Part shown: positions 30,800 through 51,850 of the stretch, piece by piece
Layout: each line of letters starts with the position of its first letter
Numbering within the stretch: position 1 is the first letter of the stretch
From: Egibacteraceae bacterium
Lineage (GTDB): Bacteria; Actinomycetota; Nitriliruptoria; Euzebyales; Egibacteraceae
Assembly (NCBI GenBank): GCA_030447925.1
Contig: JAUJNX010000003.1
Coordinates: 1-64,000, forward strand
Length of the DNA: 64,000 nucleotides
Direction of reading: 5' to 3'
The notes under the pieces: model-generated
The model's input: only the letters and a program-made list of their open reading frames with translations
Databases searched by the model: none
What the model was told of the DNA's origin: nothing
Program-made: the position numbers and the translations under genes

Positions 30800-31882
30800 C
30801 TAGGGCGTGTCTGACGAAGGTGGTTGCGCGGGTTTGGGGGTGCGGGCCGGTAGACCGGCGGCATGCAGAGTCGTCATGATCTTTCGGATGCGGAGTGGGC
30901 GGTGATCGAGCCGTTGCTGCCGGATGCCACGCCGCGGCGGGGGGCCGGTGGCGGGATCACCGGCAGGTGGTCAACGGGGTGGTGTGGCGGGCCCGGACGG
31001 GGTGTCCGTGGCGGGACTTGCCGCCTGGGTATGGGCCGTGGCAGACGGTGTATGAGCGGCATCGCCGCTGGTCTGGCGACGGGACGTGGGAGCGGGTGCT
31101 GGACGGGCTGCGGGTCGGCTGTGACGCCGGGGAGGGCGAGTGGACGGTGGGGATCGACTCGACGGTGGTGCGGGCGCATCAGCACGCCGCCGGCGCCCGC
31201 CACGCCCCGCCCGCCGACGTGCCCGCCGCCCGGCTGGTCGGCGTGCTGGAGGGTGTGGCGGGACCCTCCGGTCCCACAGGGGGCGCTACCGAATCACAAC
31301 GATCCGCCGCCTGACCGCACTGACGGTGACGTTGGTGACCGCCGGTCGCGGCGGCGGGCGGATCGGGAGGGGATCGGGCGGTCCCGCGGCGGGCTGAGCA
31401 CCAAGATCCATCTGCTGGCCGACGCCCGCGCCAGGCCGCTGGCCAGGGTCACCACCGCCGGCCAGCGCGGCGACGCGCTGGCCGCCGGGCCGCTGCTGGA
31501 CCGGCTCAAGGTCCGCCGGCCAGGGCGGGGCCGCCCGCGGACCCGGCCGGGCCGGCTGCTGGGCGACAAGGCCTACTCCAACCGGGCGCTACGCGCCCAG
31601 CTGCGCCGCCGGCGCGTCCGGGCGGTGATCCCCGAACCGGCCGACCAGCAGGCCAACCGGCGCCGCCGCGGCAGCACCGGCGGCCGCCCTCCCGTCTTTG
31701 ACGCCCAGGTCTACAAGCAGCGCAACAGCACCGAGCGGTGCGTCAACAAGATCAAGGCCTACCGGGCGGTCGCGATGCGCACCGACAAACGCCTGTACGT
31801 CTTCGAAGGCACCATCGACGTCGCCTCCATGCGCATCTGGACCCGCGACCTCACCCGCCACCATCCGTCAGACACGCTCTAG
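30800..31882 (+). mobile_element. IS5-family insertion sequence
   Basis: The left end GGGCGTGTCTGACG and the right end CGTCAGACACGCTC are inverted repeats with one mismatch, and each is bordered by CTAG (30800-30803 and 31879-31882). The transposase gene fills the inside. The element abuts the middle of an MFS gene whose 5' part is absent on the other side, so insertion was accompanied or followed by a deletion. Confidence 0.85.
30863..31882 (+). CDS. IS5-family DDE transposase, two frameshifts
   Basis: Starts MQSRHDLSDAEWAVIEPLLP, then loses one G in a G-run and continues in another frame as WRDHRQVVNGVVWRARTGCP, WTVGIDSTVVRAHQHAAGAR (first catalytic Asp). It returns near 31290 to the original frame as RSRGGLSTKIHLLADARARP, LLGDKAYSNRALRAQL (second Asp) and NSTERCVNKIKAYRAVAMR (Glu). 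Either sequence errors or decay explain this. Some IS5 members use two frames, so programmed frameshifting is a lesser alternative. The stop codon lies in the right inverted repeat. Confidence 0.85.
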   Translation: MQSRHDLSDAEWAVIEPLLPDATPRRGAGGGITGRWSTGWCGGPGRGVRGGTCRLGMGRGRRCMSGIAAGLATGRGSGCWTGCGSAVTPGRASGRWGSTRRWCGRISTPPAPATPRPPTCPPPGWSACWRVWRDPPVPQGALPNHNDPPPDRTDGDVGDRRSRRRADREGIGRSRGGLSTKIHLLADARARPLARVTTAGQRGDALAAGPLLDRLKVRRPGRGRPRTRPGRLLGDKAYSNRALRAQLRRRRVRAVIPEPADQQANRRRRGSTGGRPPVFDAQVYKQRNSTERCVNKIKAYRAVAMRTDKRLYVFEGTIDVASMRIWTRDLTRHHPSDTL

Positions 31883-33522: not shown

Positions 33523-33714
33523 TCAGTTGACGTTGCCGGGTGCGGGGACGTCGAGCTGGCGGCAGATGGCGCGCACCAGGTTCGGCTTGATCTCGCGGTG
33601 ACGTGGGATCGAGGCGCGTCCGGACGGGCCCACCCACCAGGAGTGCTGGCCCCCCTCGCGATCGAGCTGGCAGCCGTGTTCGATCAGGTGGCGCTCGAGG
33701 TCACGACGCTTCAC
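33523..33714 (-). CDS. hicA: HicA-family toxin
   Basis: 63 residues starting at GTG 33714: VKRRDLERHLIEHGCQLDRE, GGQHSWWVGPSGRASIPRH and EIKPNLVRAICRQLDV. HicA toxins are small double-stranded-RNA-binding-fold mRNA interferases. The catalytic His and the Gly before it (EGGQHSWW) are present. It overlaps the 3' end of hicB by 14 bases. The gene order hicB-hicA is one of the two known arrangements. Confidence 0.88.
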   Translation of the reverse strand: MKRRDLERHLIEHGCQLDREGGQHSWWVGPSGRASIPRHREIKPNLVRAICRQLDVPAPGNVN

Positions 33715-33949
33715 GGATGAGGAGTTCCACCGGCTCGACGTGCGCGTTGGCAGGGAGCTCCTCGACCGCTCCGTGCTCCTCCACGTAGAGCTCCAGGTAC
33801 TCCTGCAGGGCGGACAGCACGAGGGCTCGCGCCTCGTCGACCGTGGCCCCCTGCGTGAGCACGGCCGGGAACTGCGGGATCCGCGCCATGACCCAACCGT
33901 CGCCCGCGTCCTCGTAGACCACGGACAGTCGCAGCGCATGGTCGGCCAT
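33701..33949 (-). CDS. hicB: HicB-family antitoxin
   Basis: 82 residues from ATG 33949: LSVVYEDAGDGWVMARIPQF followed by PAVLTQGATVDEARALVLSA is the HicB partial RNase-H-like fold that blocks the HicA active site. No additional C-terminal DNA-binding domain of the longer HicB type is present, so autoregulation may be weak or use the same fold. The pair sits directly upstream of the CRISPR-Cas genes on the opposite strand. Confidence 0.88.
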   Translation of the reverse strand: MADHALRLSVVYEDAGDGWVMARIPQFPAVLTQGATVDEARALVLSALQEYLELYVEEHGAVEELPANAHVEPVELLIREAS

Positions 33950-34328
33950 GGCCCAACGATACGTCGGGGGACACCCCAACCCGCTCCTGAAAGTCGTGCG
34001 GCGCTCGCCATGAGCCCCTCGGCTCCGCATGGGTCGGAAACCTAGACCGCTTGGCCGGTCGTTCACAACGTCCGAATGCTGGTCGCTCCTTCTAGCAATG
34101 CTTCTAGCCAAGGCTGCAGCTCCGTGGTACACGTTGGTTGTCAGATGCTCCTGACCCCAGTTGCGGCGCTCGAAGCGTTGCTTGCAAACGCCGAGGTCCA
34201 GTTCTTCCGGTGTTCTCGCCGGCCCCCTTCGGCCTCAGGGTTCGCGGCTGGTCGTCCTTGGGGAGGGCCGGCCGCGACACCTCGACGGACATCGACGTCA
34301 TAGGTACCACAACCCGGCGGGGGCGGAT
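33950..34328. other. intergenic stretch between divergent hicBA and cas3
   Basis: About 380 bases that must carry both promoters. I see no clear -35/-10 pair or hairpin. A cas3 open frame extends upstream to 34161, but the protein there has no family resemblance. Confidence 0.4.
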
Positions 34329-36725
34329 GTGCGCGGGCAAGATGGACTCTTCGACGAGCTGGTTGGGGCGGCGGCGGGACACCTGCCATACGGGTACCAG
34401 CGACGCCTGGCACTCGACGGCGCACCCGAGGTGCTGGACGTGCCGACCGGCGCGGGAAAGACGCTTGCGGCCGTCCTGCCATGGCTGTTCCGCCGCCGCT
34501 TCCATCCCGATCCGGCCGTCCGCCACCGGACGCCTCGGCGTCTCGTGCTGGTCCTGCCCATGCGCGTGCTGGTCGAGCAGACCACCGACGCCGTCAAGGG
34601 TTGGCTGGCGGCCTTGCGCGAGGACCCGCGCTTCGACGTCGCCGGCGTCCAGGTCGAGGTCGTGATGGGCGGCGAGCCCGAACGCGAGGACGACTGGCGG
34701 CTCCGGCCGGAGGCCGACACCGTCCTGATCGGGACCCTCGACATGCTCCTGTCGCGGGCGCTGAACCGCGGCTACGCGCAGAGCCGCTGGGCCTGGCCGA
34801 TCGACTTCGGGCTGCTGAACTCCGACTGCCACTGGGTCCTCGACGAGGTCCAGCTCATGGGCCCGGCCCTGCCGACCTCCCGGCAGCTCCAGGCCTTCCG
34901 CGACCGGCTCGGCACCGCAGCCGCGTGCACATCCACCTGGATGTCCGCGACGGTCGACCCGGCCGCCCTGGAGACCGTCGACAACCCCCGTTTCGCTCCG
35001 CCCTTGGGAATCACCGACGAGGACCGCGCGGGCCCGCTCCGTGCTCGCCTGGCGGCGCCCAAGCGCGTCGAGGAGCTCCGCCTCGGCGGCAAGGACCGCG
35101 AGCGCCAGCTCGCCGACGCGCTGCTCGCCCGCCACCGTCCCGGGACCCTGACCCTCGCGATGCTCAATAGCGTCCAGCGCGCCCAGGCGCTGTTCGCGGC
35201 CCTCGCGGACCGCGAACCGGTCGCACCCCTGGTTCTCCTGCACGCGCGCTTCCGTCCGGACGACCGTGCCCGGCAGGTCGCGGAGGCCCTGGCCTCGCCC
35301 AAGGGTTCGGGCCGCATCGTCGTTTCCACGCAGGTGCTGGAGGCCGGTGTGGACATCTCGGCCGCCACCATGCTGATCGAGGCCGCGTCCTGGCCGTCGG
35401 TCGTCCAGCGCGCGGGACGGTGCAACCGCGACGGCCGGACGCCTGGCGCGACCCTCGTCTGGGTCGAGCCCCCGAAGCCCGATCCCTACCACGCCGAGGA
35501 CGTCACGGCCACCGTGGCGGCGCTCCGCCGCCTCGAGGGCACCATGGTCACGCCACAGTCGCTGCCCATGGAGCGGGTTGAGCAGCGCCGCGTCGATCAT
35601 CCCGTCCTCCGCCGCCGCGACCTCGTCGAGCTGTTCGACACCGCCCCGGACCTGAGCGGCGACGACCTCGACGTCAGCCGCTTCCTGCGTGAGGCGGACG
35701 ACAGCGACGTCCAGGTGGCCTGGCGCCTGTCACCGTCCGGCGGCGACCGCACCGCGATCCCCGTGCCCACTCGCGAGGAGCTGTGCCCCGTGCCGGTCGG
35801 CCAGCTCGTCGCCTGGCTGCGCGCCCGCGTGACCGTCGCCTGGCGGCTGGACCACCAGGACGACATCTGGAAGCCCGTGTCCCGGCCCCACGAGCTCCGC
35901 CCCGGCCACGTGCTGGTCGTGGACGCCGCCGTCGGCGGCTACACTGCCGAACGCGGATGGGACCCGGCCAGTCGCCGACCGGTCGATGTGGTCGTCGGTG
36001 GGGACCCCTCGCCGCTGGCCGCCGCCGAGGAACCCGTCGCAGACGACCCGCTCACCGTCCTGCCGGGCCGCTGGGTGCCCCTGGTCGAGCATCTGGCCGA
36101 CGTCGAGCGCGAGGTCCGCGCCCTCGCTCCGGACCTGGGCCTCCCGCAGGCCCACGCGGAGGCTGCAGCGCTGGCCGCGCGCCTCCACGACGTGGGCAAG
36201 GCGCACGACGTGTTCCAGGCTTCCCTGCAAAGGGCGGCGGGGCAGCCGGCCGGCGAGGGCGGACCCTGGGCGAAGTCGCCACGGAGCGGGGTGCTGCGCC
36301 ACACCCGCCGCGGGTTCCGTCACGAGCTGGTCTCGGCGCTTGCGCTGCTGGGCCCCGGCGCACAGCTTCTTGATGGAGCGGAGGAGCCGGACCTCGTGCG
36401 CTACCTCGTGGCCGCCCACCACGGGCGTGTGCGCGTGGCCATCCGATCGTTGCCGGGCGCGGACCAGGACCCGGAGGACCCCACCCGCCGGGTGGCGCTG
36501 GGCGTGCGCGACGGCGAGCCCTTCGGCCCCGTGGATGTCCCCGGCGGGACCGTCCCGGCGGGGGAGCTGGATCTGGCGGTGATGGAGCTCGGCGCTCGGG
36601 CGGACGGGAGTCCGTCCTGGACCGCCTGCGCCCTCGCACTGCGCGACCGGCCCGACCTCGGACCCTTCCGTCTGGCCATGCTGGAGGCCGTCGTGCGCCT
36701 CGCCGACTGGCGGGCCAGCCGATGA
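34329..36725 (+). CDS. cas3: type I-G Cas3 helicase with C-terminal HD nuclease
   Basis: 798 residues from GTG 34329, preceded by a GGGGGCGG site. Superfamily-2 helicase first: LDVPTGAGKT (residues about 36-45), HWVLDEVQLMG (DEAH-type box, about 170), TQVLEAGVDISAATMLIEAA and VVQRAGRCNRDGR. The HD nuclease follows: LAARLHDVGKAHDVF (about 615-630), RHELVSALALLG and LVAAHHGRVRVA. Cas3 is recruited to target-bound Cascade and unwinds and degrades the invader. The order helicase then HD is the reverse of most type I Cas3 proteins and fits I-U/I-G. It ends in a 4-base overlap with csx17. Confidence 0.95.
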   Translation: MRGQDGLFDELVGAAAGHLPYGYQRRLALDGAPEVLDVPTGAGKTLAAVLPWLFRRRFHPDPAVRHRTPRRLVLVLPMRVLVEQTTDAVKGWLAALREDPRFDVAGVQVEVVMGGEPEREDDWRLRPEADTVLIGTLDMLLSRALNRGYAQSRWAWPIDFGLLNSDCHWVLDEVQLMGPALPTSRQLQAFRDRLGTAAACTSTWMSATVDPAALETVDNPRFAPPLGITDEDRAGPLRARLAAPKRVEELRLGGKDRERQLADALLARHRPGTLTLAMLNSVQRAQALFAALADREPVAPLVLLHARFRPDDRARQVAEALASPKGSGRIVVSTQVLEAGVDISAATMLIEAASWPSVVQRAGRCNRDGRTPGATLVWVEPPKPDPYHAEDVTATVAALRRLEGTMVTPQSLPMERVEQRRVDHPVLRRRDLVELFDTAPDLSGDDLDVSRFLREADDSDVQVAWRLSPSGGDRTAIPVPTREELCPVPVGQLVAWLRARVTVAWRLDHQDDIWKPVSRPHELRPGHVLVVDAAVGGYTAERGWDPASRRPVDVVVGGDPSPLAAAEEPVADDPLTVLPGRWVPLVEHLADVEREVRALAPDLGLPQAHAEAAALAARLHDVGKAHDVFQASLQRAAGQPAGEGGPWAKSPRSGVLRHTRRGFRHELVSALALLGPGAQLLDGAEEPDLVRYLVAAHHGRVRVAIRSLPGADQDPEDPTRRVALGVRDGEPFGPVDVPGGTVPAGELDLAVMELGARADGSPSWTACALALRDRPDLGPFRLAMLEAVVRLADWRASR

Positions 36726-38950
36726 CCCGGCACAGCCACGAGATCCCGGGTGCACGCCCCGCCCCGCTCGGGTCGTACCTCAAGGGGTTGGGCCTGCTCC
36801 GCCTCCTGGGCGAGCAGGCGGACCCGATGGCTGCGGCCGCTTGGGAGGGCGACACCCTCGCCGTCACGACCCGCCTGGACCGTGACGAGCTGCTCGCCTT
36901 CCTGCTCGACGACTACGCGCCGACACCGCTGGTGTCCCCGTGGAACGGCGGCAGCGGCTTCTACCCGGGCGACAAGAAGGCCCGCGAGGAGATCGCGCTC
37001 ATCGACGGCGACGACAGGCAGCGCCTGCGCACGTACCGCGAGACCCTCCGGACCGCGAGGAACCTGGTCGCGGAGGCCCAGGTCGACGGCTGGGAACCCA
37101 AGGACCCGAAGCACAAGGAGCGCTTCGTCCAGCGCTGCCGTGCCCGGCTTCCCGACCAAGCGGTCGCCTGGATCGACGCGGCCGTCGTCCTCACCGGGTC
37201 CGGGCTCACGTTCCCCACCCTGCTGGGCGGGTCGGGCGGGAACCTCGGGCGCCTGGACCTGTCCGCCAACTTCATGGCACGGGTTGCTGACGTGCTCTGC
37301 CTCCGCACGGGCCGCGGGGCTCCCGATCGCCGCACGTCTCGGAAGTGGCTCAACGGGGCCCTGTTCGGCACCGCCGCGCCGGCCGTCAAGGCGAGCATCG
37401 GGCAGTTCGATCCGGTGGCGGCGTCGGGGCCGACCTCGTCCGCCTTCGGGTCGGCGGATGCACTGATCAACCCCTGGGACGTGGTCCTGCTCCTGGAGGG
37501 GGCGCTGCTGTTCACCGCCGCCGCCGCCCGCCGCCTCGCTATGAGTGCACCGGGCACCGTCGCGATGCCCTTCATGGTGGCGTCGACCGCGGTCGGCTAC
37601 CCGTCGAGCGCCCCGGACGAGAACGCCAAGGGCGAGGTCTGGGCGCCGCTGTGGTCATGCCCCGCCACCCTGCCCGAGGTCGCCCGCCTGATCGGCGAGG
37701 GCAGGTCGACCTGGAACCGCCGCCAGGCCAGCACCGGCCTGGACTTCGCGCGGGCGGCGGCCAGTCTCGGCGTGGACCGGGGCATCGAGGCGTTCGCCCG
37801 CCACGCCCTGGTGGAGCGCCACGGCCAGAGCATGCTCGCCGTGCCGGTCGGGCGGTTCGCGGTGACGGCCCGCCCACAGATCCCCGTGCTGCGCCAGCTC
37901 GACGGCTGGCTCGACCGGGTCCGCGGCACGAGCAGGCTACCCCCCGGGGCGGCGACGGCCCTCCGTCGCGTGGAGTCGGCGATGTTCGACGTCGCCGGCC
38001 ACGGCGGGAGCGACCGGCTGGTTCGCGTGCTGGTCGAGGCCGCCGACCTGGAGGCGGTGATCGGGCGGTCCGGGAACCTGCGCGGGACACTCGGGCCGGT
38101 GCCGGACCTGGCGGCCCGCGGGTGGCTGCCGCAGGTGCTCGGCGAGCGGCCGGCCCCGGAGGCCGTGCTGGCCGCTGCGCTGGCCTCCCAGCGCGACCTC
38201 GACGGTTCCAGCCTCCGGTTCCTGCTGCGGCCGATGGCCCGGAGCGCCGGCCGCGGCGGGCGGCGGCTGGCCTTCACGGCCGCGCCGGCACCGGTCCTCG
38301 GCCTCGGGCGCCGCCCGCTCGCCGCGGTCCTCGCCGACGCGCTCGTGCTCCGCACCCGGCAGGCCGAGGAGCGCGCGGCCCGGCTGGCCGAGCGGGAGGA
38401 GCAGGAGGTCGGGGTCGTCGTGGGCTTCGACCGCGGGGACCCCGTCCCGGCGGGGGCGGTCGCGGCGCTCCTGGACGGGCGCCTCGACGAGGACCTGCTG
38501 GCCCGCCTGCTGGCCGGGATGCTGCTGCTGACGTGGCCCGGGGGCGAGGCCGACGAGCCCCTTGGTGACGCGGGGGAGTTCGCAATGGCGCACCTGGCCG
38601 ACCCGGCGTACGCCCTGCTCGCGCCGTTCTTCCAGCGTCGTGCGATCCCGGGCTGGGGCCGCGACCCATTCCGTCCCAGGATCCAGGCCACGTGGCCGGC
38701 TCAGCTCCGCGCGGGGCGGGTCGAGGAGGTCCTCAGGGAGGCCCACCGCCGCCTGCGCATCGCCGGCCTCCAGCCCGCGCTGCGGGTTCCCTCCCGTGAC
38801 GACGAGGCGACGGGTCTCCGCCCGGCCGTGCCCGGCGCGCGGCTCGCGGCGGCGCTGCTCGTCCCCATCCACCCGGCCGACGCCCGGAAGCTCCTGCTCC
38901 GCGTCGCGCCCAAACGAGTGACCGACGAGGGCGCCGGCACGGCGGCCTGA
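36722..38950 (+). CDS. csx17: Csx17, the Cas8-like large subunit of type I-G Cascade
   Basis: 742 residues with the Csx17 start PLGSYLKGLGLLRLLGEQAD, then PTPLVSPWNGGSGFYPGD, LTFPTLLGGSGGNLGRLDLS and WDVVLLLEGALLFTAAAARR, which occur in Csx17/Cas8u2 proteins. In the interference complex this subunit takes the Cas8 position, where PAM recognition is expected. Intact and at normal length. ATGA overlap with cas3. Confidence 0.92.
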   Translation: MTRHSHEIPGARPAPLGSYLKGLGLLRLLGEQADPMAAAAWEGDTLAVTTRLDRDELLAFLLDDYAPTPLVSPWNGGSGFYPGDKKAREEIALIDGDDRQRLRTYRETLRTARNLVAEAQVDGWEPKDPKHKERFVQRCRARLPDQAVAWIDAAVVLTGSGLTFPTLLGGSGGNLGRLDLSANFMARVADVLCLRTGRGAPDRRTSRKWLNGALFGTAAPAVKASIGQFDPVAASGPTSSAFGSADALINPWDVVLLLEGALLFTAAAARRLAMSAPGTVAMPFMVASTAVGYPSSAPDENAKGEVWAPLWSCPATLPEVARLIGEGRSTWNRRQASTGLDFARAAASLGVDRGIEAFARHALVERHGQSMLAVPVGRFAVTARPQIPVLRQLDGWLDRVRGTSRLPPGAATALRRVESAMFDVAGHGGSDRLVRVLVEAADLEAVIGRSGNLRGTLGPVPDLAARGWLPQVLGERPAPEAVLAAALASQRDLDGSSLRFLLRPMARSAGRGGRRLAFTAAPAPVLGLGRRPLAAVLADALVLRTRQAEERAARLAEREEQEVGVVVGFDRGDPVPAGAVAALLDGRLDEDLLARLLAGMLLLTWPGGEADEPLGDAGEFAMAHLADPAYALLAPFFQRRAIPGWGRDPFRPRIQATWPAQLRAGRVEEVLREAHRRLRIAGLQPALRVPSRDDEATGLRPAVPGARLAAALLVPIHPADARKLLLRVAPKRVTDEGAGTAA

Positions 38951-38965
38951 GACCGAGGAGACCCG

Positions 38966-39946
38966 ATGACGAGGCGTCACCTGTTCGAGATCGACCTGGC
39001 CCCCGCCGTCGGGAGCCGCTTCCAGCCCACCGGCTTCCCCGACATCGGCCACGCACGCTTCGAGCGCCCCGTCGGCGACCACGGCTGGGAGGACGTCCTG
39101 CTCGTCGAGTCCGCCCAGTCGATGGCCAACCACCTGGAGGGGACGGCCTGGGACGGCGCACCGCAGGCCCCGGACCCGACCCTCGACGGGCTGCCCTACG
39201 TGCGGGTCGTGGCCGACGAGGACGGCCGCTACCTCACGTCGAGCCGGACGGAGGCGCACCGGCTGGCGTCGGCGTTCGTGAAGGACTCGCTGCTCGACGG
39301 GACGCCGATGCGCGAAGTGATCCGCGATCGCCTGGACCTGCGCGCCGACACCCCGCTCCAGCGCCACGCCGTCGCCCGCGAGGTCTTCCGGCTGGACCCG
39401 CTGTCCCTGCTGCACGGCGTGTTCTTCGCCGAGAAGGCCGAGGTGTGGCCGGCGCAGCCGCGCTTCACCCGCGCCATCACCGGCTTCGTCGAGGCGATGG
39501 ACGTGAAGGCCGCCGTCTCGGGCGGAGTGAAGCGCGACGACGTTCGCCACCAGCGTGACGAGAGCGGCAGCTCCGCGGAGGGTTACGGGTCGATCCCCTT
39601 CCACCGCACCGAGTGGACCGCGCGGCGGATCGTCGCCTCCTTCGCGATCGACGAGGGGCTGCTGGCCTCGTATGGGCTGGGCGACGCGGCGACGGCCCTG
39701 CTCGTAGCGGTCGGGCGCTGGGAGATCCGCAGCCTCCTGGACCGCGGCCTGCGCCTGCGCAGCGCGTGCGACCTGGAGCCCCTCGCACCAGAGGTCATCG
39801 ACAGGGATCGCCGACCTCTCCCTTCGGCGAAGGAGCTGCACGACGAGATCCGCGAGCACGTCGCGGCCTGTGCGGCCCTCCTGGAGGGCACCGGTCCGAT
39901 CGAGGTCCGCTGGAACATCGAGCGGGCCCGGCCCAAGAAGCGGTGA
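38966..39946 (+). CDS. csb1: Csb1, the Cas7 backbone subunit
   Basis: 326 residues with the GSU0053-family blocks GSRFQPTGFPDIGHARFERP, LVESAQSMANHLEGTAWD, GSIPFHRTEWTARRIVASFA and GRWEIRSLLDRGLRLRSACD. Csb1 is the Cas7-type RRM protein that polymerises along the crRNA spacer. A GAGGAG site precedes ATG 38966. Eight bases separate its stop from csb2, so all four effector genes form one transcript. Confidence 0.93.
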   Translation: MTRRHLFEIDLAPAVGSRFQPTGFPDIGHARFERPVGDHGWEDVLLVESAQSMANHLEGTAWDGAPQAPDPTLDGLPYVRVVADEDGRYLTSSRTEAHRLASAFVKDSLLDGTPMREVIRDRLDLRADTPLQRHAVAREVFRLDPLSLLHGVFFAEKAEVWPAQPRFTRAITGFVEAMDVKAAVSGGVKRDDVRHQRDESGSSAEGYGSIPFHRTEWTARRIVASFAIDEGLLASYGLGDAATALLVAVGRWEIRSLLDRGLRLRSACDLEPLAPEVIDRDRRPLPSAKELHDEIREHVAACAALLEGTGPIEVRWNIERARPKKR

Positions 39947-39953
39947 CGCGGCG

Positions 39954-41405
39954 ATGCCCGTGACGCTGGCGGTAGTCCTGCCCTGGGGCCGCTTCCACGC
40001 GACGCCGTGGGACCGCAACGTGAACGAGGGCGCCGTGGAGTGGCCACCCTCGCCGTGGCGGTTGCTGAGGACCCTGTACGCGACCTGGCGATCGCGGGCA
40101 CCGGAGCTGGAGCAGGGCGTGGTCGCGGGTCTGCTCGGGCGGCTGGCCGTTCCGCCGGCCTACCTGCTCCCGCGGACCTCCCAGGGCCACACTCGCCACT
40201 ACCTGCCGGACTGGACCAGCGGGGCTCCCAAGTGGGATCCGGCGAAGAAGGAGTTCCGACTGCGCCGCACCGACAAGGTGGTCGACGCCTTCGTGGTCGC
40301 GGAGCGGGGCGCGGAGCTGCGGGTCCGCTGGGACGTGGACCTCGCCGCGGCCGAGCGCGGGGCGCTGGCCGTTCTGGCCGGCCATCTCGGCTACCTGGGG
40401 CGGGCGGAGTCGCTGTGCGAGGCGCGCCTGCTCGGCACCGACGGCGACGCGGGCCGGCCGCCGTCGCTGGCTCGGTCGGCATGGCTGCGGCCCGGAGACC
40501 TCGACGGCGCGCCGTCGACCCCGGTGCTGTGTCCTGAGCAGCCGCTGGACCTGGAGGCGCTGACGGTGGAGACCGCGACGATGCGCACCGCCCGGCTGCT
40601 GCAGCCGGCGGGGTCACGCTGGGTCGAGTACCCGACGGTGGGGGAGGACACGGGGCCGGTGCCCTCCGCGCGACCCCCGCGGCGCGTCGGGACGCGCCCG
40701 GTGATGGTGCGCTGGGCGATCTCCGCCCCCGCCAACCCGCCGGTGACCGCGGCCGTGGCGATGGCCGACGTGCTGCGCGGGGCCTGTCTGTCCCAGTTCG
40801 GCACCCCGTCCTCGACGACGCTGTCGGGCAAGCACCCCGACGGCTCGCCGCTGGAGGGGCACCGGCACGCCCACTATCTCGCTCACGACGAGGACGGCGA
40901 CGGGCTGCTCGACACGCTCTACGTCTGGGCCCCGGGAGGTCTGGGGCCGCAGGAGGTGGCCGCGCTCGCGAAGGTGGTCGAGCTGCGCCGGCGGAAGGGC
41001 CTGCCCCCGGAGGACTACCGGCCCTGCAACCTGGGGCTTGAGGGCGCAGGCCCCGCCCAGGTGATCGCTCCGCGGCTGGTCGGGCCAAGCACGCGGTGGA
41101 TCAGCGCGACCCCCTTCGCGCCGACGCAGCACCCGCGCCGCCAGGACACTGCGACCTTCGTCGACCACCAGGTCCGCCTGGAGCTGGGGCGGCGCGACCT
41201 GCCGGAGCCGGTCGCCGTCGGCCTCGTCGTGGACGGGCGGCGCCGGCAGGCGACGGAGTTCCGCCGCCACCGCATCGCCGAGCGCCGACAGGCCGACATG
41301 CGGCGCGCGTTCATGGTCCAGGTGACGTTCCCGGTGGAGGTGCCGGGGCCGATCGCCCTGGGCGCCCTGAGCCACTTCGGCCTCGGGCTCATGGTGCCGG
41401 GATGA
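39954..41405 (+). CDS. csb2: Csb2, the Cas5-Cas6 fusion subunit
   Basis: 483 residues beginning VTLAVVLPWGRFHATPWDRN and VEWPPSPWRLLRTLYATW, the GSU0054 family (Cas5 half). The later RHAHYLAHDEDGDGLLDTLY with two His, and the C terminus ALGALSHFGLGLMVPG (the Gly-rich loop of Cas6), form the RNase half that cuts the repeat RNA into crRNAs. I start it at ATG 39954. The open frame reaching back into csb1 is discarded. Its stop overlaps the next start by ATGA. Confidence 0.92.
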   Translation: MPVTLAVVLPWGRFHATPWDRNVNEGAVEWPPSPWRLLRTLYATWRSRAPELEQGVVAGLLGRLAVPPAYLLPRTSQGHTRHYLPDWTSGAPKWDPAKKEFRLRRTDKVVDAFVVAERGAELRVRWDVDLAAAERGALAVLAGHLGYLGRAESLCEARLLGTDGDAGRPPSLARSAWLRPGDLDGAPSTPVLCPEQPLDLEALTVETATMRTARLLQPAGSRWVEYPTVGEDTGPVPSARPPRRVGTRPVMVRWAISAPANPPVTAAVAMADVLRGACLSQFGTPSSTTLSGKHPDGSPLEGHRHAHYLAHDEDGDGLLDTLYVWAPGGLGPQEVAALAKVVELRRRKGLPPEDYRPCNLGLEGAGPAQVIAPRLVGPSTRWISATPFAPTQHPRRQDTATFVDHQVRLELGRRDLPEPVAVGLVVDGRRRQATEFRRHRIAERRQADMRRAFMVQVTFPVEVPGPIALGALSHFGLGLMVPG

Positions 41406-41677
41406 CCCTCGAGGACGTGCCGGAGCTCGTCCCGGCGCGCATGGTCAACGAGTTCAGCTACTGCCCCCGCCTGTTCTTCCTGGAGTGGGTGCAGGCCCGC
41501 TTCGCCGACAGCGTCGACACGGTGGAGGGGCGGGACCACCACCGGCGCGTCGACACCGAGCAGGGCGCGCCGCCGCTCCCCGAGGACGGCGAGCTGTCCG
41601 CGGCCCGCGGCATGGACTGCTTCGAGTTCCTCGGTGTGACCACGGGCCTTCCCACTGGCGGTCCCCGTATCGTGTAG
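41402..41677 (+). pseudogene. deletion scar of the adaptation genes: Cas4 N terminus fused to a Cas2-like C terminus
   Basis: ATG 41402 overlaps the csb2 stop. The first 60 codons, VPARMVNEFSYCPRLFFLEW and DSVDTVEGRDHHRRVD, are the start of the Cas4 half of I-G Cas4-Cas1 fusions. From about codon 66 the reading changes to ARGMDCFEFLGVTTGLPTG followed by GPRIV, which looks like the last residues of Cas2 (typically ..D.IE.LG.. ending in P.IV). The frame is kept across the join. The rest of Cas4, all of Cas1 and most of Cas2 are missing, so no spacer integrase is encoded here. The Cas2 assignment is inference from about 25 residues. Confidence 0.8.
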
Positions 41678-41846
41678 CCCGCGAGCGCTCCGGTGCTGCC
41701 CCCGGCCCCGCCACCCCTCGCACGCCGCTGACCAGCCCTTTCGCCCCTTGACAACTGCACAGCGAGCTTCATCGGCCCACTCCCAGAGCGCACCTCTCGC
41801 CCGCCCACCCAAACCCGCTGGTCAGCGCACCCAACATGACCAAGCG
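41678..41846 (+). promoter_or_regulatory. CRISPR leader
   Basis: 169 bases between the Cas4 remnant and the first repeat, less G+C-rich than its surroundings and with TTGACA at 41748-41753 as a possible -35 element. The uniform repeats begin here and the degenerate ones lie at the far end, so transcription runs to the right from this stretch. Confidence 0.7.
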
Positions 41847-43910
41847 GTCCCCGCAGCCTCCGAGCCGCGGCCCCATTGCGGCAAGCCTGGAAGTGGTTTC
41901 GTCTGCCATTCATGCGGAGTCCCCGCAGCCTCCGAGCCGCGGCCCCATTGCGGCGAGTTCTGGGAGCTGGTGGTGGCCCACCTGCTGCTGGTCCCCGCAG
42001 CCTCCGAGCCGCGGCCCCATTGCGGCGACCAGCACCTCAACGCCGCCCACACCGCCCACGCCCGCGTCCCCGCAGCCTCCGAGCCGCGGCCCCATTGCGG
42101 CAAGCAGCGCATCGAGGAGATCGAGGGCATCGGCGTCGTCCCCGCAGCCTCCGAGCCGCGGCCCCATTGCGGCGTCCAGTTCGACATTCTTGCTGCCCGT
42201 CTCGAGGATGTCCCCGCAGCCTCCGAGCCGCGGCCCCATTGCGGCACGACCGTCACGTTGATGTTTCTGCCCGACGATCTCGTCCCCGCGGCCTACGAGC
42301 CGCGGCCCCATTGCGGCTTCCTGACCTGCGGGCTGACCCACCTGGAGATGGCCGTCCCCGCAGCCTCCGAGCCGCGGCCCCATTGCGGCAAGTCCTCGGT
42401 GCTGGCGTTCTCCCCCGCTTGGCACGTCCCCGCAGCCTCCGAGCCGCGGCCCCATTGCGGCCTGACGCCCTCTCCCGACCAGGGGCCCCAGTGAGCCGTC
42501 CCCGCAGCCTCCGAGCCGCGGCCCCATTGCGGCCTCCTCCCGCGTCGCGGGCGTGGAGACGGGTGGGGCGTCCCCGCAGCCTCCGAGCCGCGGCCCCATT
42601 GCGGCGGCATGCCGACCGCGCACAACATTACCGCGGCCACGGTCCCCGCAGCCTCCGAGCCGCGGCCCCATGGCGGCACGTCCCCGCGGAGCAGCCCGTC
42701 AACGACGTACTCCGGTCCCCGCAGCCTCCGAGCCGCGGCCCCATTGCGGCGTCTGCACGCCCGCCGGATCGCAGAAGTCCAGCACGGTGGTCCCCGCGGT
42801 CTACGAGCCGCGGCCCCATGGCGGCGCGCTGAGCGCCGCGCCTCTCGCCGCCGGGCCGAGCCCGGTCCCCGCGGCCTACGAGCCGCGGCCCCATTGCGGC
42901 ATCACCGCCGAGTCCGGCTACTTCGACCGGTGACCGGGTCCCCGCGGCCTACGAGCCGTGGCCCTGTTGCGGCTGCCGGTTGACCGTCTGCTTCCACGTC
43001 ATGACGTCAGGGTCCCCGCGGCCTACGAGCCGCGCCCCATTGCGGCACCAGCGGGTGCGGCTGGAGGTCCTGGTTCTCGTCATGGTCCCCTCGGCCTACG
43101 AGCCGCGCCCCCCATTGCGGCGCGACCGCCGCCTCCCCCACCGCGCCGGACTCGCGGGGTCCCCGCGGCCTACGAGCCGCGGCCCCATTGCGGCAACAGT
43201 TCCGAGACGGCCTGCCAGGTCTGAGGGGTGGCGGTGGTCCCCGCGGCCTACGAGCCGTGGCCCCATTGCGCCACGGTGACCGCAGCGGCGGCGCCGGGGA
43301 TCAGGAAGGTCCCCGCGGCCTACGAGCCGCGGCCCCATTGCGGCCTCATGCCCATCCGCCTGCTTGGCTTCCTGCGCTGCGGTCCCCGCGGCCTACGAGC
43401 CGTGGCCCCATTGCGGCGCGACGGCGGCGGTCAACTTCGACCGGATCTCGGCGTGGCCCCCGCGGCCTACGAGCCGGGGCCCCATTGCGGCCTCCAGCTG
43501 GGCAGCGAGCCCAACGGTTCTCGTGCGCGGTCCCCGCGGCCTACAAGCCCCGGCCCCATTGCGGCTCGTTGACGACGTGCTGCAGCAGCCCGACCGCTGC
43601 TGGGTCCCCGCGGCCTACGAGCCGCGGCCCCATTGCGGCGCCAACGCCGTCGTCGTCCGCGGCGCCGATGGGACGGGTCCCCGCGGCCTACGAGCCGCGG
43701 CCCCACTGCGGCTTACCGCCGCGACATCATGACCCGCTGTCTGCGAGTCCCCGCGGCCTACAAGCCGCGGCCCCATTGCGGCTTCATGAACCGGTAGTCG
43801 ATCCCTTCGCGTCGTGGTGTCCCGCGGCCTACGAGCCGCGGCCCCATTGCGGCCGGTGGATCAAGGACACCGAGGCGCGGTTCGGGGCGTCCCCGCGGCC
43901 TCATTGCGGC
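41847..43910 (+). CRISPR. CRISPR array, 29 repeats and 28 spacers
   Basis: The unit is 36 bases: GTCCCCGC..., then a stem CCGCGGC-CTACGA-GCCGCGG in the distal form, then CCCCATTGCGGC. Spacers are mostly 36 bases (range about 36-39). Repeats 1-13 carry A at position 9 and C at position 14, except repeat 7, which has the distal form. Repeats 14-29 have G and A there. Distal repeats accumulate single changes (for example 42938, 43012, 43085, 43237, 43456) and the last (43889-43910) is only 22 bases, with an internal deletion. The array follows the I-G effector genes directly. The orientation comes from this decay gradient. Confidence 0.97.
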
Positions 43911-43924
43911 GTCCTCGACGCGAA

Positions 43925-45337
43925 CACCCTGCGAGTCGACGGGCGCGCCAGACCAGCACGCTGGCGGGATCCTCGGCGCTGGTCAGCTCTCGAGCGGTAA
44001 GCGCGGCCACGAGTTGCTCGGCGTGGGCGCCGGCCTGAAGGCAGGCGCTGATGGTCTCGGCCAGGGCGGCGGAGGACCGGGCGGCGGCCGCGGACTCCGG
44101 GTCGAGACCGGCGGTCAGCTGGTCGACGACGGCGTGGACCTCGGGCCTGTCGGCGTCGGCGAGTGCGTCGCTGGTGAGGCGAACGGTTGCCGCGGCCCGG
44201 TCGTCCAGAAGGGCGTCGGCGAGCGCTTCGGCTTGGGCGGCGGTGGCGATGCCCGGGGCGAGCTGCTCAGCGAAGCCGCGGATGACGTCGCGGCGGGTGA
44301 AGGTGGACAACTGAGCGGTCAGCCCTGCGTCGCCGGCGAGCGTGTCGACGGCGGCGGTCGCCTGGTCGAGGGTGACGGGCTGGTGCTCGACGGCGTGGAG
44401 CAGGGCCAGCAGCTGCTCCTCGGTCCAGCCGAGCGCCTCGGCTTGCTCGCCAGCGCTGCTGGAGCGCACCCGGGTCGACGCCGTAGTCGCGGGAACCGGG
44501 GGCGGGCAGAACCGCGTGGTCGGCAGGGGCGGTCTTGGCCCTGCGGGTGGCCAGGGCGGCGATCTGAGCGGCCGTGGCGGACGCCAGCCCGAGATGGTTC
44601 AGGAGCTTGAGGACCTCGGCGCGTCGCGTCGAGAACGCCTCGATCAGCCAGCGGGGGATGCCGGCGAGGTCGGCGGAGCCGTTGACCACCGGGCCCCACT
44701 GCACGCCGAGGAGCCGGGTGAGCTCGTGGCGGAGCACGGACTGGTACAGGAACCCGGCGGTGCGGGCGTGAGTGAGCAGGCTGCGGCCGTCCAGAGTACG
44801 GCACTGCCCGTCGTCAGTGGTGAGGGCGTGGTTGGCGAGCAGGACGTGAGTGTGCAGCAGTGGGTCGCCGGCGCGGCTGGTGCGGTGGCGGAACGCGGCC
44901 GCCACGAACCCCTCGACGGGCACCTGGCGTCCCTGGCGACGCACCGCCGCGGCGTTGCGCTCGAGGTAGCCCAGCGCCTCGGCGACGGCACGGTCGTGGG
45001 CCCAGCGCACGAGCCGGGCGGTAGAGGCATCGCTGAGGGCCCACAGCAACGACACGCTCTTCGGCGCGCGGAAGGTGGCGTCCCAGCCGGGGACGGTGCG
45101 CTTGCGGCCGCGGCCATGCCCGGTCAGCTGCTCGCCGGTGCGGGGGTCGGTTCCCGCGAGGACCGCCCGGAGGGCGGCCGCGTCGACCTGGCCGTGCAGG
45201 TCGAACCGGGCGGCGGACTCGCCGGTCCAGTAGCCGGGCGCCTCGCCCGCGCCGGTGTAGTAGTCCTCGACGCCGGAGGCCACGGTCTCCAGGTAGTAGG
45301 ACTCTCGGCCCGCTGCGAGGGGGGTGATGTTCAGCAT
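43925..45337 (-). pseudogene. MobF-family (TrwC/TraI) conjugative relaxase, 3'-truncated and frameshifted
   Basis: ATG 45337 opens MLNITPLAAGRESYYLETVA, ARFDLHGQVDAAALRAVLAG, GWDATFRAPKSVSLLWALSD and the metal-binding segment HRTSRAGDPLLHTHVLLAN, the relaxase domain that nicks oriT. Near 44465 one base is lost and the other frame continues SSSAGEQAEALGWTEEQLLA and STFTRRDVIRGFAEQLAPGI, the start of the TraI-type middle region. Similarity ends near 43930, just beside the terminal CRISPR repeat, so the helicase half is missing. Upstream genes overlap it (TGATG). Confidence 0.85.
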
Positions 45338-49002: not shown

Positions 49003-50127
49003 GTCTTGAAGTGCACGGGTTGAGGTTGCACCTCCGCTGAGAAGCGGGTCATGGGGTGGACCATCTGGAAGCGACCAAGCGACCAGATCGGACTCACCCC
49101 ATGACCCTTGCGGAGGTTATCCACCGACGTCGGCTGGCGGTGCTGGACCACGCCGCGCGCATCTCGGTCACCGAGGCGTGCCGGGTGTCGGGCATCAGCC
49201 GTACGACCTTCTACCGCTGGCGGGACCGGGCCGCCCGCTACGGGCTGGACGCGTTGATACCCAAGCCGCGGTGCACCCCGTCCCAGCCCAACACCACCCC
49301 GCCCTGGCAGATCGAGATCGTGCTGGCCGAGGCGCTGGCCCGCCCCACCCTGGGCGCTCGCCAGCTGCTGGAACCCCTCGCCGACCGCGGCGTGCACCTG
49401 TCGGCTTCCGGCGTGCAGAAGATCCTGCGGCGGGTCAACCTCGCCACACGTGCCCAGCGAGTCGCCGCCCTGGCCCAGATCACCGCCGCCGACAGCGGCC
49501 TGGCCGCCGAGGCGGCGCTGGACGGCCCGTTCGGGTTCTGCCACTTCGCCGCCCAACCCGGCGACCTGGTCGCGCTGGACGCCTTCTACGTCGGCCAGCT
49601 CAAGGGCATCGGCAAGGTCTTCCAGCTCACCGCCGTGGACACCGCCACTCGCTGGGCCGTCGCCCAGCTGATCATCGGCGACAAGACCGCCCAGGCCGCC
49701 GCGGCCTTCCTGGACCTGGTCGTCGCCCGGCTCGCCGCGGTCGGCGTCGAGCTGACCGGCGTACTGACCGACAACGGGCCGGAGTTCATCGGCCGGGCCT
49801 TCCGCGATCACCTCGCCGACCTCGACGTCACCCACCACCGCATCCCGCCCCGGTCGCCCAACCACAACGCCGTCTGCGAACGCTTCCAAGGCACCGTCCT
49901 GGACGAGTTCTACCGGCCGGCGTTCCACCGGCAGCGGTTCGACCACCTGGGCCACCTCGACGGTCAACTCCAGGGCTGGCTGGACCGCTACAACACCCGC
50001 CGACGCAACCACAGCGACTTCATGCGCGGCCGAACGCCGCTGCAGGTCCTCACCAGCCACCTGTCGACCGCCGCCTAAGCTGCCGATCAGATGGTCCACC
50101 CGTCACCTCAACCTGTGCGCAGGTGGG
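49003..50127 (+). mobile_element. IS481-family insertion sequence
   Basis: The ends contain GGTTGAGGT (49018-49026) and its inverted copy ACCTCAACC (50105-50113), with the longer GGGTGGACCATCTG motif also repeated in inverted form further in. CCTAG borders both sides (48998-49002 and 50128-50132). This is compatible with a target duplication or with the CTAG preference known for the family. The element separates two parts of a minus-strand run. Confidence 0.85.
49101..50078 (+). CDS. IS481-family transposase
   Basis: 325 residues from ATG 49101 (an in-frame GTG at 49056 lies within the terminal repeat zone). The N-terminal helix-turn-helix is ARISVTEACRVSGISRTTFY, and the rve integrase core follows with VALDAFYVGQLKGIGKVFQL, GVLTDNGPEFIGRAFRDHLA and HNAVCERFQGTVLDEFYRPA, supplying the Asp, Asp, Glu triad. 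Intact and of normal length, so this element may be active. Confidence 0.95.
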   Translation: MTLAEVIHRRRLAVLDHAARISVTEACRVSGISRTTFYRWRDRAARYGLDALIPKPRCTPSQPNTTPPWQIEIVLAEALARPTLGARQLLEPLADRGVHLSASGVQKILRRVNLATRAQRVAALAQITAADSGLAAEAALDGPFGFCHFAAQPGDLVALDAFYVGQLKGIGKVFQLTAVDTATRWAVAQLIIGDKTAQAAAAFLDLVVARLAAVGVELTGVLTDNGPEFIGRAFRDHLADLDVTHHRIPPRSPNHNAVCERFQGTVLDEFYRPAFHRQRFDHLGHLDGQLQGWLDRYNTRRRNHSDFMRGRTPLQVLTSHLSTAA

Positions 50128-50132
50128 CCTAG

Positions 50133-51355
50133 CGGGGCGCCGGAGGGTCGGCGCGGCAAGAGGTAGGCGTCACGCGACAGGTCGCGACGGAACTGTGCCC
50201 GCCGCGAGTCGCCGCTGACGTCCTCCGGGCCCTCGGGATCGACGGTCCACCCCATCCCGCCACGATCGGCGTCGATCATGCCCTGGTAGTCGTAGGCGGA
50301 CTTGCCGTTGGCCTGCAACGTGTCCCGGATGGCCTCCAGGTCCCGCACGGTCTGCCAGGTGACCAGGCGCCGGGCGGCGTGGTTGACCGGGAGCTCCTCG
50401 TACTCCCCGAGGCGCCGCGCCTCCTTGGTCAGGGCCCTGTTGATCCCCTGCTGGAGCAACCCGGTGTAGGAGACCCACCCGAGGTGAACGAGGCGATGCC
50501 GTGGTGGGCGGTGCGGATGCCCATGGCCCGGAACTGGTCGAGCACCTCCACCTCTTGCTGGAGCCACCTGCCGGGCCTTCCCGGGTGCTGGTTGGCGAGC
50601 TTCACGACCAGCGGCGGGCGCCCCTGGTCACCGCCACGGCGCTTCACCACGCGGACGTGGCCCCTGCTCCCGCGGCCCAGCTCCCGGCCCAGCGTCGAGT
50701 CGCCGCGGTCGAGCGCCGCCACCTCGGCCGCCAGGTCCACGGGCGCCACGCGCACGTCGCGCAGGTCGGTGAAGACCGGCAGCTTCACCCCACCGGAGGT
50801 GATCGGGACCGGCACCGGAGGCCTGATGCCGTTGGACGACAGCGCGTCCCGCGAGTTCGACCGCGAGGAACCGCATCTCCGCCCCGGGAGGAGCGTCGAC
50901 CTTTCCGGACAGCTCGGCGGAGCCGGGCGTCCCGTACGTCGTGCGGTCGGTTCCGTTCACCTCGACGCTGACGCCCACGGACTACAGCGTGCGGGGGTCG
51001 GCGGACACGTGGGTCTGGCGGGGGAACAGGCGCCAGCGAACCTTGCCCGGGGTGCTGGCGTCGACCTTGATGAAGGGGTCGCCCGGGCCGGCGGTCGCGG
51101 GGACACCGGTGGTGCCGGCACCGACCTCCTGGAGCTCGTAGCAGCCGTCCCCGAAGGCGTTGCAGGCCAGGTTCTCGATGCCGTCGAGGAAGCGGTGGAC
51201 CGGACCGGGGCGCTCCCCGGCGGGGACTAGCAGGCCCGGGGGTTCGGGGTCGTCCGCCGGCGGGAGGGCGGGCGGGCCGGCCACGAGCGTCACCGGCTCG
51301 GCGGCGACGACCGGTGCCGGGTTCCGTGCAGGCGGTCGCGGTGGTGGTGCACAGG
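50133..51355 (-). pseudogene. unrecognised conjugative-element gene, broken at several points
   Basis: Read on the minus strand, the pieces are FLDGIENLACNAFGDGCYEL, VRWRLFPRQTHVSADPRTL, TAG at 50984-50982, then in the same frame SVGVSVEVNGTDRTTYGTPG. After a shift near 50860 come PVPITSGGVKLPVFTDLRDV and LAAEVAALDRGDSTLGRELG. After another near 50480 come LLQQGINRALTKEARRLGEY and YDYQGMIDADRGGMGWTVDP. The chain may be one gene with a nonsense codon and two shifts, cut at its 5' end by a transposase fragment and at its 3' end by IS481. The N-terminal part is beta-rich with two Cys and could be surface-exposed. No family recognised. Confidence 0.5.
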
Positions 51356-51850
51356 GCCCGCCGGTCGGCACGAACGCCAGCGGGCGGCCCTTGCCGTCGG
51401 CGGCGGTGTGGATCTTGGTCGTCAGCCTGCCTCGGGACCGGCCCCAAGCATGATCAACCGGCTCAGCGAACACCGGATCCTTGTGATTCGACCCAGCCCC
51501 CCTTACCGGCCGGGCGCCTGCGGCGTGCTGGTGGGCCCGCACGATCGTGGAGTCGACCCCCACCAGCCAGTCCAGATCCCCGGCCGCGTCAACCTGCGCC
51601 TGCACCGCGGCCACCACCCGGTCCCAGGTGCCGTCCCGACTCCACGTCGCGTGCCGCTTCCAGGCCGTCTGCCACGGCCCGAACCGTTCCGGCAGGTCCC
51701 GCCACGGCGACCCCGTCCGGTACTTCCACACGATCGCCGACACCACCGTGCGGTGGTCCCGGAACCGCCGGCCCGCCGATGAGCATCCGACGGCAACAAC
51801 GGCGCGGTCCGCGACCAGGCCACATCCGAAATCACCGCGCTGTCATCCAC
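51356..51850 (-). pseudogene. second IS5-type transposase, truncated
   Basis: ATG 51850 gives MDDSAVISDVAWSRTAPLLP. A shifted frame continues as VVSAIVWKYRTGSPWRDLPE, WDRVVAAVQAQVDAAGDLDW and VGVDSTIVRAHQHAAGARPV (catalytic Asp), then RSRGRLTTKIHTAADGKGRP. After FVPTGGP the similarity stops and unrelated coding sequence begins, so the second Asp and Glu are lost. It is of the same broad type as the IS5 element at 30.8 kb but not the same element. Confidence 0.8.

Follow-up and report, generated by a model that had tools for sequence, protein, structure and literature searches.

CRISPR loci of types III, IV, and VI that lack an adaptation module are well known. All systems that acquire spacers use Cas1 and Cas2 (PMC10504553), and loci without cas1 and cas2 have been described for type I-B in haloarchaeal proviruses (PMC12596717) and for type I-E in Streptomycetaceae (PMC8730458). 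Four haloarchaeal genomes without the adaptation module were also without any other helper system (PMC12596717). The type III-A system of Lactococcus lactis pKLM is interference-competent with an incomplete set of adaptation genes, and its ability to acquire spacers is unclear (PMC3519859).

We analyzed a type I-G locus within a stretch of 64,000 nucleotides (the window) from an Egibacteraceae bacterium (assembly GCA_030447925.1, contig JAUJNX010000003.1, positions 1 to 64,000). Two complete type I-G loci served for comparison: G011 (contig C55), from the same family, and L008 (JANYCT010000037.1), from an actinomycete MAG. Like this locus, both have the order cas8g-csb1-csb2-(cas4-cas1)-cas2-leader-array, a homologous leader, and repeats that end in CCCCATTGCGGC or CTTCATTGCGGC; unlike it, they keep 1.68–1.69 kb of cas4-cas1 and cas2.

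All four effector genes lie on the forward strand, and their products match the family profiles over nearly the whole length, indicating that Cas3g, Cas8g, Cas7g, and Csb2 are full length. The first gene, cas3g (34266–36725, its start chosen inside a longer open frame), encodes a helicase with a C-terminal HD nuclease (TIGR02621, E 2.4e-232; PADLOC Cas3g, E 2.9e-265) and contains the motifs TGAGKT, DEVQ, SAT, QRAGR, HDVGK, and HH. It is followed by cas8g/csx17, encoding the large subunit (36722–38950; TIGR04113, E 5.4e-151, positions 2–716 of 718), cas7g/csb1, encoding the backbone subunit (38966–39946; PF09617, E 1.4e-34; also TIGR02570), and csb2, encoding the Cas5-Cas6-like subunit that processes crRNA (39957–41405; TIGR02165, E 8.7e-42, positions 3–491 of 492). 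The set thus comprises the type I-G effectors: Cas8g/Csx17, Csb1 plus Csb2, and a Cas3g with both helicase and HD nuclease. Judged from these sequences, interference is likely retained at the locus.

Where the relatives carry cas4-cas1 and cas2, the list of open reading frames in the window contains a single forward frame of 91 codons (41402–41677), whose ATG overlaps the csb2 TGA at 41403–41405, as ATGA. The left part (41402–41593) corresponds to the first 64 codons of cas4-cas1: residues 9–64 matched positions 1–56 of the 546 in the NCBIfam profile cas4g_cas1g (E 3.3e-19), residues 10–58 matched PADLOC Cas1g (E 4.1e-13), and residues 2–64 aligned to the Cas4 start of G011 with a BLOSUM62 score of 238. 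The right part (41606–41677), assigned by alignment and shuffle tests, corresponds to the last 23 codons of cas2 and its stop. Residues 70–91, GMDCFEFLGVTTGLPTGGPRIV, aligned over their full length and without gaps to the final 22 residues of G011 Cas2, GSDCFEFLGAASDLPDQGPHIV, with 15 of 22 identical; at the DNA level, the scar and G011 cas2 have 20 consecutive bases in common, GACTGCTTCGAGTTCCTCGG. In local alignments the tail scored 76 against G011 Cas2 and 65 against L008 Cas2, and the maxima from 20,000 shuffles were 46 and 45, respectively. With a profile of diverse Cas2 proteins the tail again ranked above all 20,000 shuffles, yet at just 6.5 bits it was barely separated from them; the alignments to the two close relatives provided the clear separation. 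What is left at the locus, 56 of 546 profile positions on one side and the last 23 codons alone on the other, constitutes neither a Cas4-Cas1 nor a Cas2.

These results bear out the initial annotation, which had described a 91-codon frame of about 60 Cas4 codons followed by about 25 Cas2-like codons; its reading of the tail would have failed if the tail had shown no similarity to Cas2, and none of the 20,000 shuffles scored as high. Its further claim, that cas4-cas1 and cas2 were lost by one in-frame deletion with effectors, leader, and array preserved, agrees with the profile matches and with the comparison to the relatives. The stretch between the corresponding points is 1693 bp in G011 and 1677 bp in L008, so that approximately 1.68–1.69 kb of the relatives' sequence is absent at the junction zone (codons 65–69, 41594–41608, forward strand). 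We conclude that a single deletion of approximately 1.7 kb very probably took out the larger part of cas4-cas1 and almost the whole of cas2, leaving a locus that can probably interfere and cannot adapt.

The leader (41678–41846, forward strand) starts straight after the Cas2 stop, as it does in G011, and holds CCTTGACAACT, which includes the −35-like hexamer TTGACA. The leader is conserved: its alignment with G011 scored 109 (best shuffle, 75) and that with L008 scored 62 (best shuffle, 44). The array lies at 41847–43853 (forward strand), with 28 repeats of 36 bp and spacers of 34–42 bp. This array, which has regular repeats, unique spacers, and a leader, is present once in the genome; a shortened extra repeat lies past its end at approximately 43890. 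Repeats 1–13 are near-identical, one (repeat 7) being of an older type and one having a single change, and repeats 14–28 are of the older type and degenerate. Private changes numbered 1 in repeats 1–13 versus 19 in repeats 14–28 (permutation p 0.0004). The position of repeat 7 (42282), an older-type repeat amid the newer-type run, suggests recombination within the array.

New repeats are copies of the leader-proximal repeat. Because of this, and because the leader side is almost uniform, decay of the distal repeats had already set in while the array was still being extended, and acquisition of spacers went on until recently. The deletion itself was probably a late event, since the repeats on the leader side have stayed uniform and neither a stop nor a frameshift has arisen in the scar.

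Spacer 4 (42102–42137, forward strand) matches a conserved phage portal-protein gene. It matched phages of Arthrobacter and Microbacterium in their portal gene and a Pseudomonas plasmid in a DUF935 gene, each with 4–5 mismatches of 36, and the 5′ side of these protospacers reads TTC, ATG, or TAC. A pattern modelled on these known matches was used to scan viral contigs and found 21, with TTC in 20 of 21; these contigs represent one spacer and are not independent, because the encoded protein keeps the codon flanking the target conserved (Phe in most). The TTC fits the TTN PAM that has been reported for type I-G (PMC9638904), with one spacer as the basis for the comparison. Exact scans of viral contigs with spacers 1, 2, 4, and 6 gave no match.

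The DNA flanking the locus contains several mobile-element genes. Transposase genes of the IS4/5 and rve types flank the island (30863–31882, 49056–50078, and 50982–51746). On the reverse strand, a MobF/TrwC relaxase gene (43861–45337; PF08751, E 3.6e-77) has a frame change at approximately 44470, lacks its C-terminal part, and terminates where the array has its distal end; the broken relaxase gene indicates that the DNA around the CRISPR locus is left over from a conjugative element. Just upstream of cas3, and transcribed away from it, is a toxin-antitoxin pair of the HicB-HicA type (33523–34132, reverse strand; HicA PF07927, E 1.4e-11; HicB-like UPF0150, E 2.4e-4). The idea that HicA generally accompanies type I-G loci was rejected, as HicA was near the locus in just 2 of 24 genomes with csb2.

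The decay of the distal repeats, together with the transposases and the broken relaxase, could mean that the entire locus is defunct or on the way to being so, with adaptation lost first and interference already inactive through lack of expression or point mutations. We consider this unlikely, though worth weighing: all four effectors are full length with the Cas3 motifs in place, and the leader and the leader-side repeats are conserved.

Another explanation for the missing genes is an assembly artefact, in which cas4 was joined to cas2 and 1.7 kb was dropped, the living cell having a full module. The assembly is a draft in 27 contigs, and a mixed population could hold both forms; however, the join lies well within a contig of 472,932 bases, the missing genes were found nowhere else in the assembly, and a mis-join would keep the frame one time in three. 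Short-read mis-joins usually need approximately 20 bases or more of shared sequence, whereas the stretch of the junction that belongs to neither gene or could belong to both spans only about 15 bases (residues LSAAR, before G, whose letters could be supplied by either gene), with no long repeat at the join, and the matching places in G011 were found by inspection to share no such repeat. An artefact is therefore very unlikely. A genuine deletion at a short shared sequence would fit this absence of a long repeat.

To search for adaptation genes outside the locus, we used the whole assembly (4,657,027 bases in 27 contigs, 93.18% complete) and the same Cas1, Cas2, and Cas4-Cas1 searches that recovered these families in control genomes. 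Elsewhere in the genome there was no Cas1 (PF01867), no Cas2 of either large family (PF09827 and PF09707), and no second Cas4-Cas1. A candidate second copy at G000:C12:171845-172219 was rejected, being a weak match (E 9.7e-4, profile positions 55–174, one stop) that covers no Cas1. Because the assembly is 93% complete and in 27 contigs, an adaptation module could possibly lie on a missing piece. Loss of adaptation in this type I-G locus is nevertheless supported, and the initial annotation, which had called for a search of the rest of the genome for cas1 and cas2, had proposed just such a system that can no longer learn.

Adaptation might also be provided in trans, or a substitute, for example a transposase encoded nearby, might take over the role of the missing proteins. 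Supply in trans is known for types III, IV, and VI, and tnsB-tnsC beside type I-E loci without cas1-cas2 have been proposed as a substitute (PMC8730458, PMC12596717); here an rve transposase is present at 49056–50078. With no Cas1 in the assembly, and with nearby transposases of ordinary IS types (rve integrase core, IS4/5) and not tnsB with tnsC, we regard this explanation as highly improbable.

The frequency of such a loss was examined in samples of 66 genomes of the class and 397 of the phylum. The phylum sample contained csb2 in 24 genomes: by the positions of Cas4-Cas1 matches, 20 had adaptation genes (including G183, where they are on another contig), three (G214, G297, and G333) had csb2 at contig ends without a Cas4-Cas1 match, and one, the locus in the window, had none. 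With those three set apart, 21 type I-G loci could be resolved, and all but the one in the window have either Cas4-Cas1 or Cas4 plus Cas1. The same scar was found in none of the other genomes of either sample, and no relative of Cas7g was found on plasmids. In one genome of the same family as the window's (L010, G003:C1, 9797–11739), cas4 and cas1 are separate overlapping frames beside type I-G effectors and not the usual fusion.

An N-terminal Cas4 fragment in G168 was examined as a possible second instance of the scar and rejected. It is a partial duplicate (L070, G168:C2, approximately 634733–635393), in which 52 codons of the cas4 start are followed by a HicB-HicA-like pair and then by the complete cas4-cas1 of a type I-G locus. 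In Thioalkalivibrio, csb2 and cas4-1 are reported to be separated by two toxin-antitoxin systems (PMC9638904), and insertion of toxin-antitoxin genes ahead of cas4 may be recurrent.

The product of the 91-codon frame would contain the first Cas4 cysteine and the last strand region of Cas2, without nuclease motifs and without the Cas2 body; a structure prediction from the single sequence (mean pLDDT 46.4) gave no usable model. It is most likely a non-functional remnant. The initial annotation had suggested instead that a short protein was kept for another role, and a Cas4-Cas2 product could be retained for a function such as partner binding or operon control, given that no stop codon interrupts the frame between the csb2 overlap and the Cas2 stop. 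This suggestion is not supported: an unbroken frame arises by chance one time in three, a homologue with both halves was found in none of the 397 phylum genomes, plasmids (Cas4 half only), or viral contigs, and the product has neither catalytic motifs nor a confident fold. Retention for function is thus extremely doubtful, and it is scarcely credible that the remnant is translated by coupling to csb2 and acts as a modulator of the I-G effector or of the leader, the loss of adaptation having been selected and not accidental.

For a locus that lost adaptation by a single deletion and kept its effectors, the effector complex should not depend on the adaptation proteins for its activity. Csb2 would still process crRNAs, Cas7g, Cas8g, and Csb2 would continue to bind targets next to a TTN motif, and Cas3g would go on degrading the bound targets. 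Because no integrase is left, no new spacer could be added; immunity would be fixed at the present spacers, with existing protection kept and none gained. The locus is a clean natural case of type I-G with a frozen memory, in which the scar and the repeat pattern let the order of events be read as array growth followed by loss of acquisition. Closely related strains, if sampled, could show how long interference outlasts adaptation. The mechanistic gain is small, since loci without adaptation genes are well known.

The locus adds a further case to an already known class of reduced CRISPR loci. Compared with the Cas4-Cas1 and Cas2 of type I-G (PMC10504553), both ends of the gene pair are recognizable here, and the whole of Cas1, almost the entire Cas2, and the nuclease of Cas4 are gone. 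It resembles the haloarchaeal I-B, the Streptomycetaceae I-E, and the type III, IV, and VI loci in having effectors and an array without cas1-cas2. In pKLM, cas2 alone is missing and a RelE-like gene is in its place (PMC3519859), whereas here one deletion spans cas4-cas1 and cas2. Unlike the I-B, I-E, III, IV, and VI loci, this one is of type I-G, and it represents a known type of decay in which the deletion scar can still be read.
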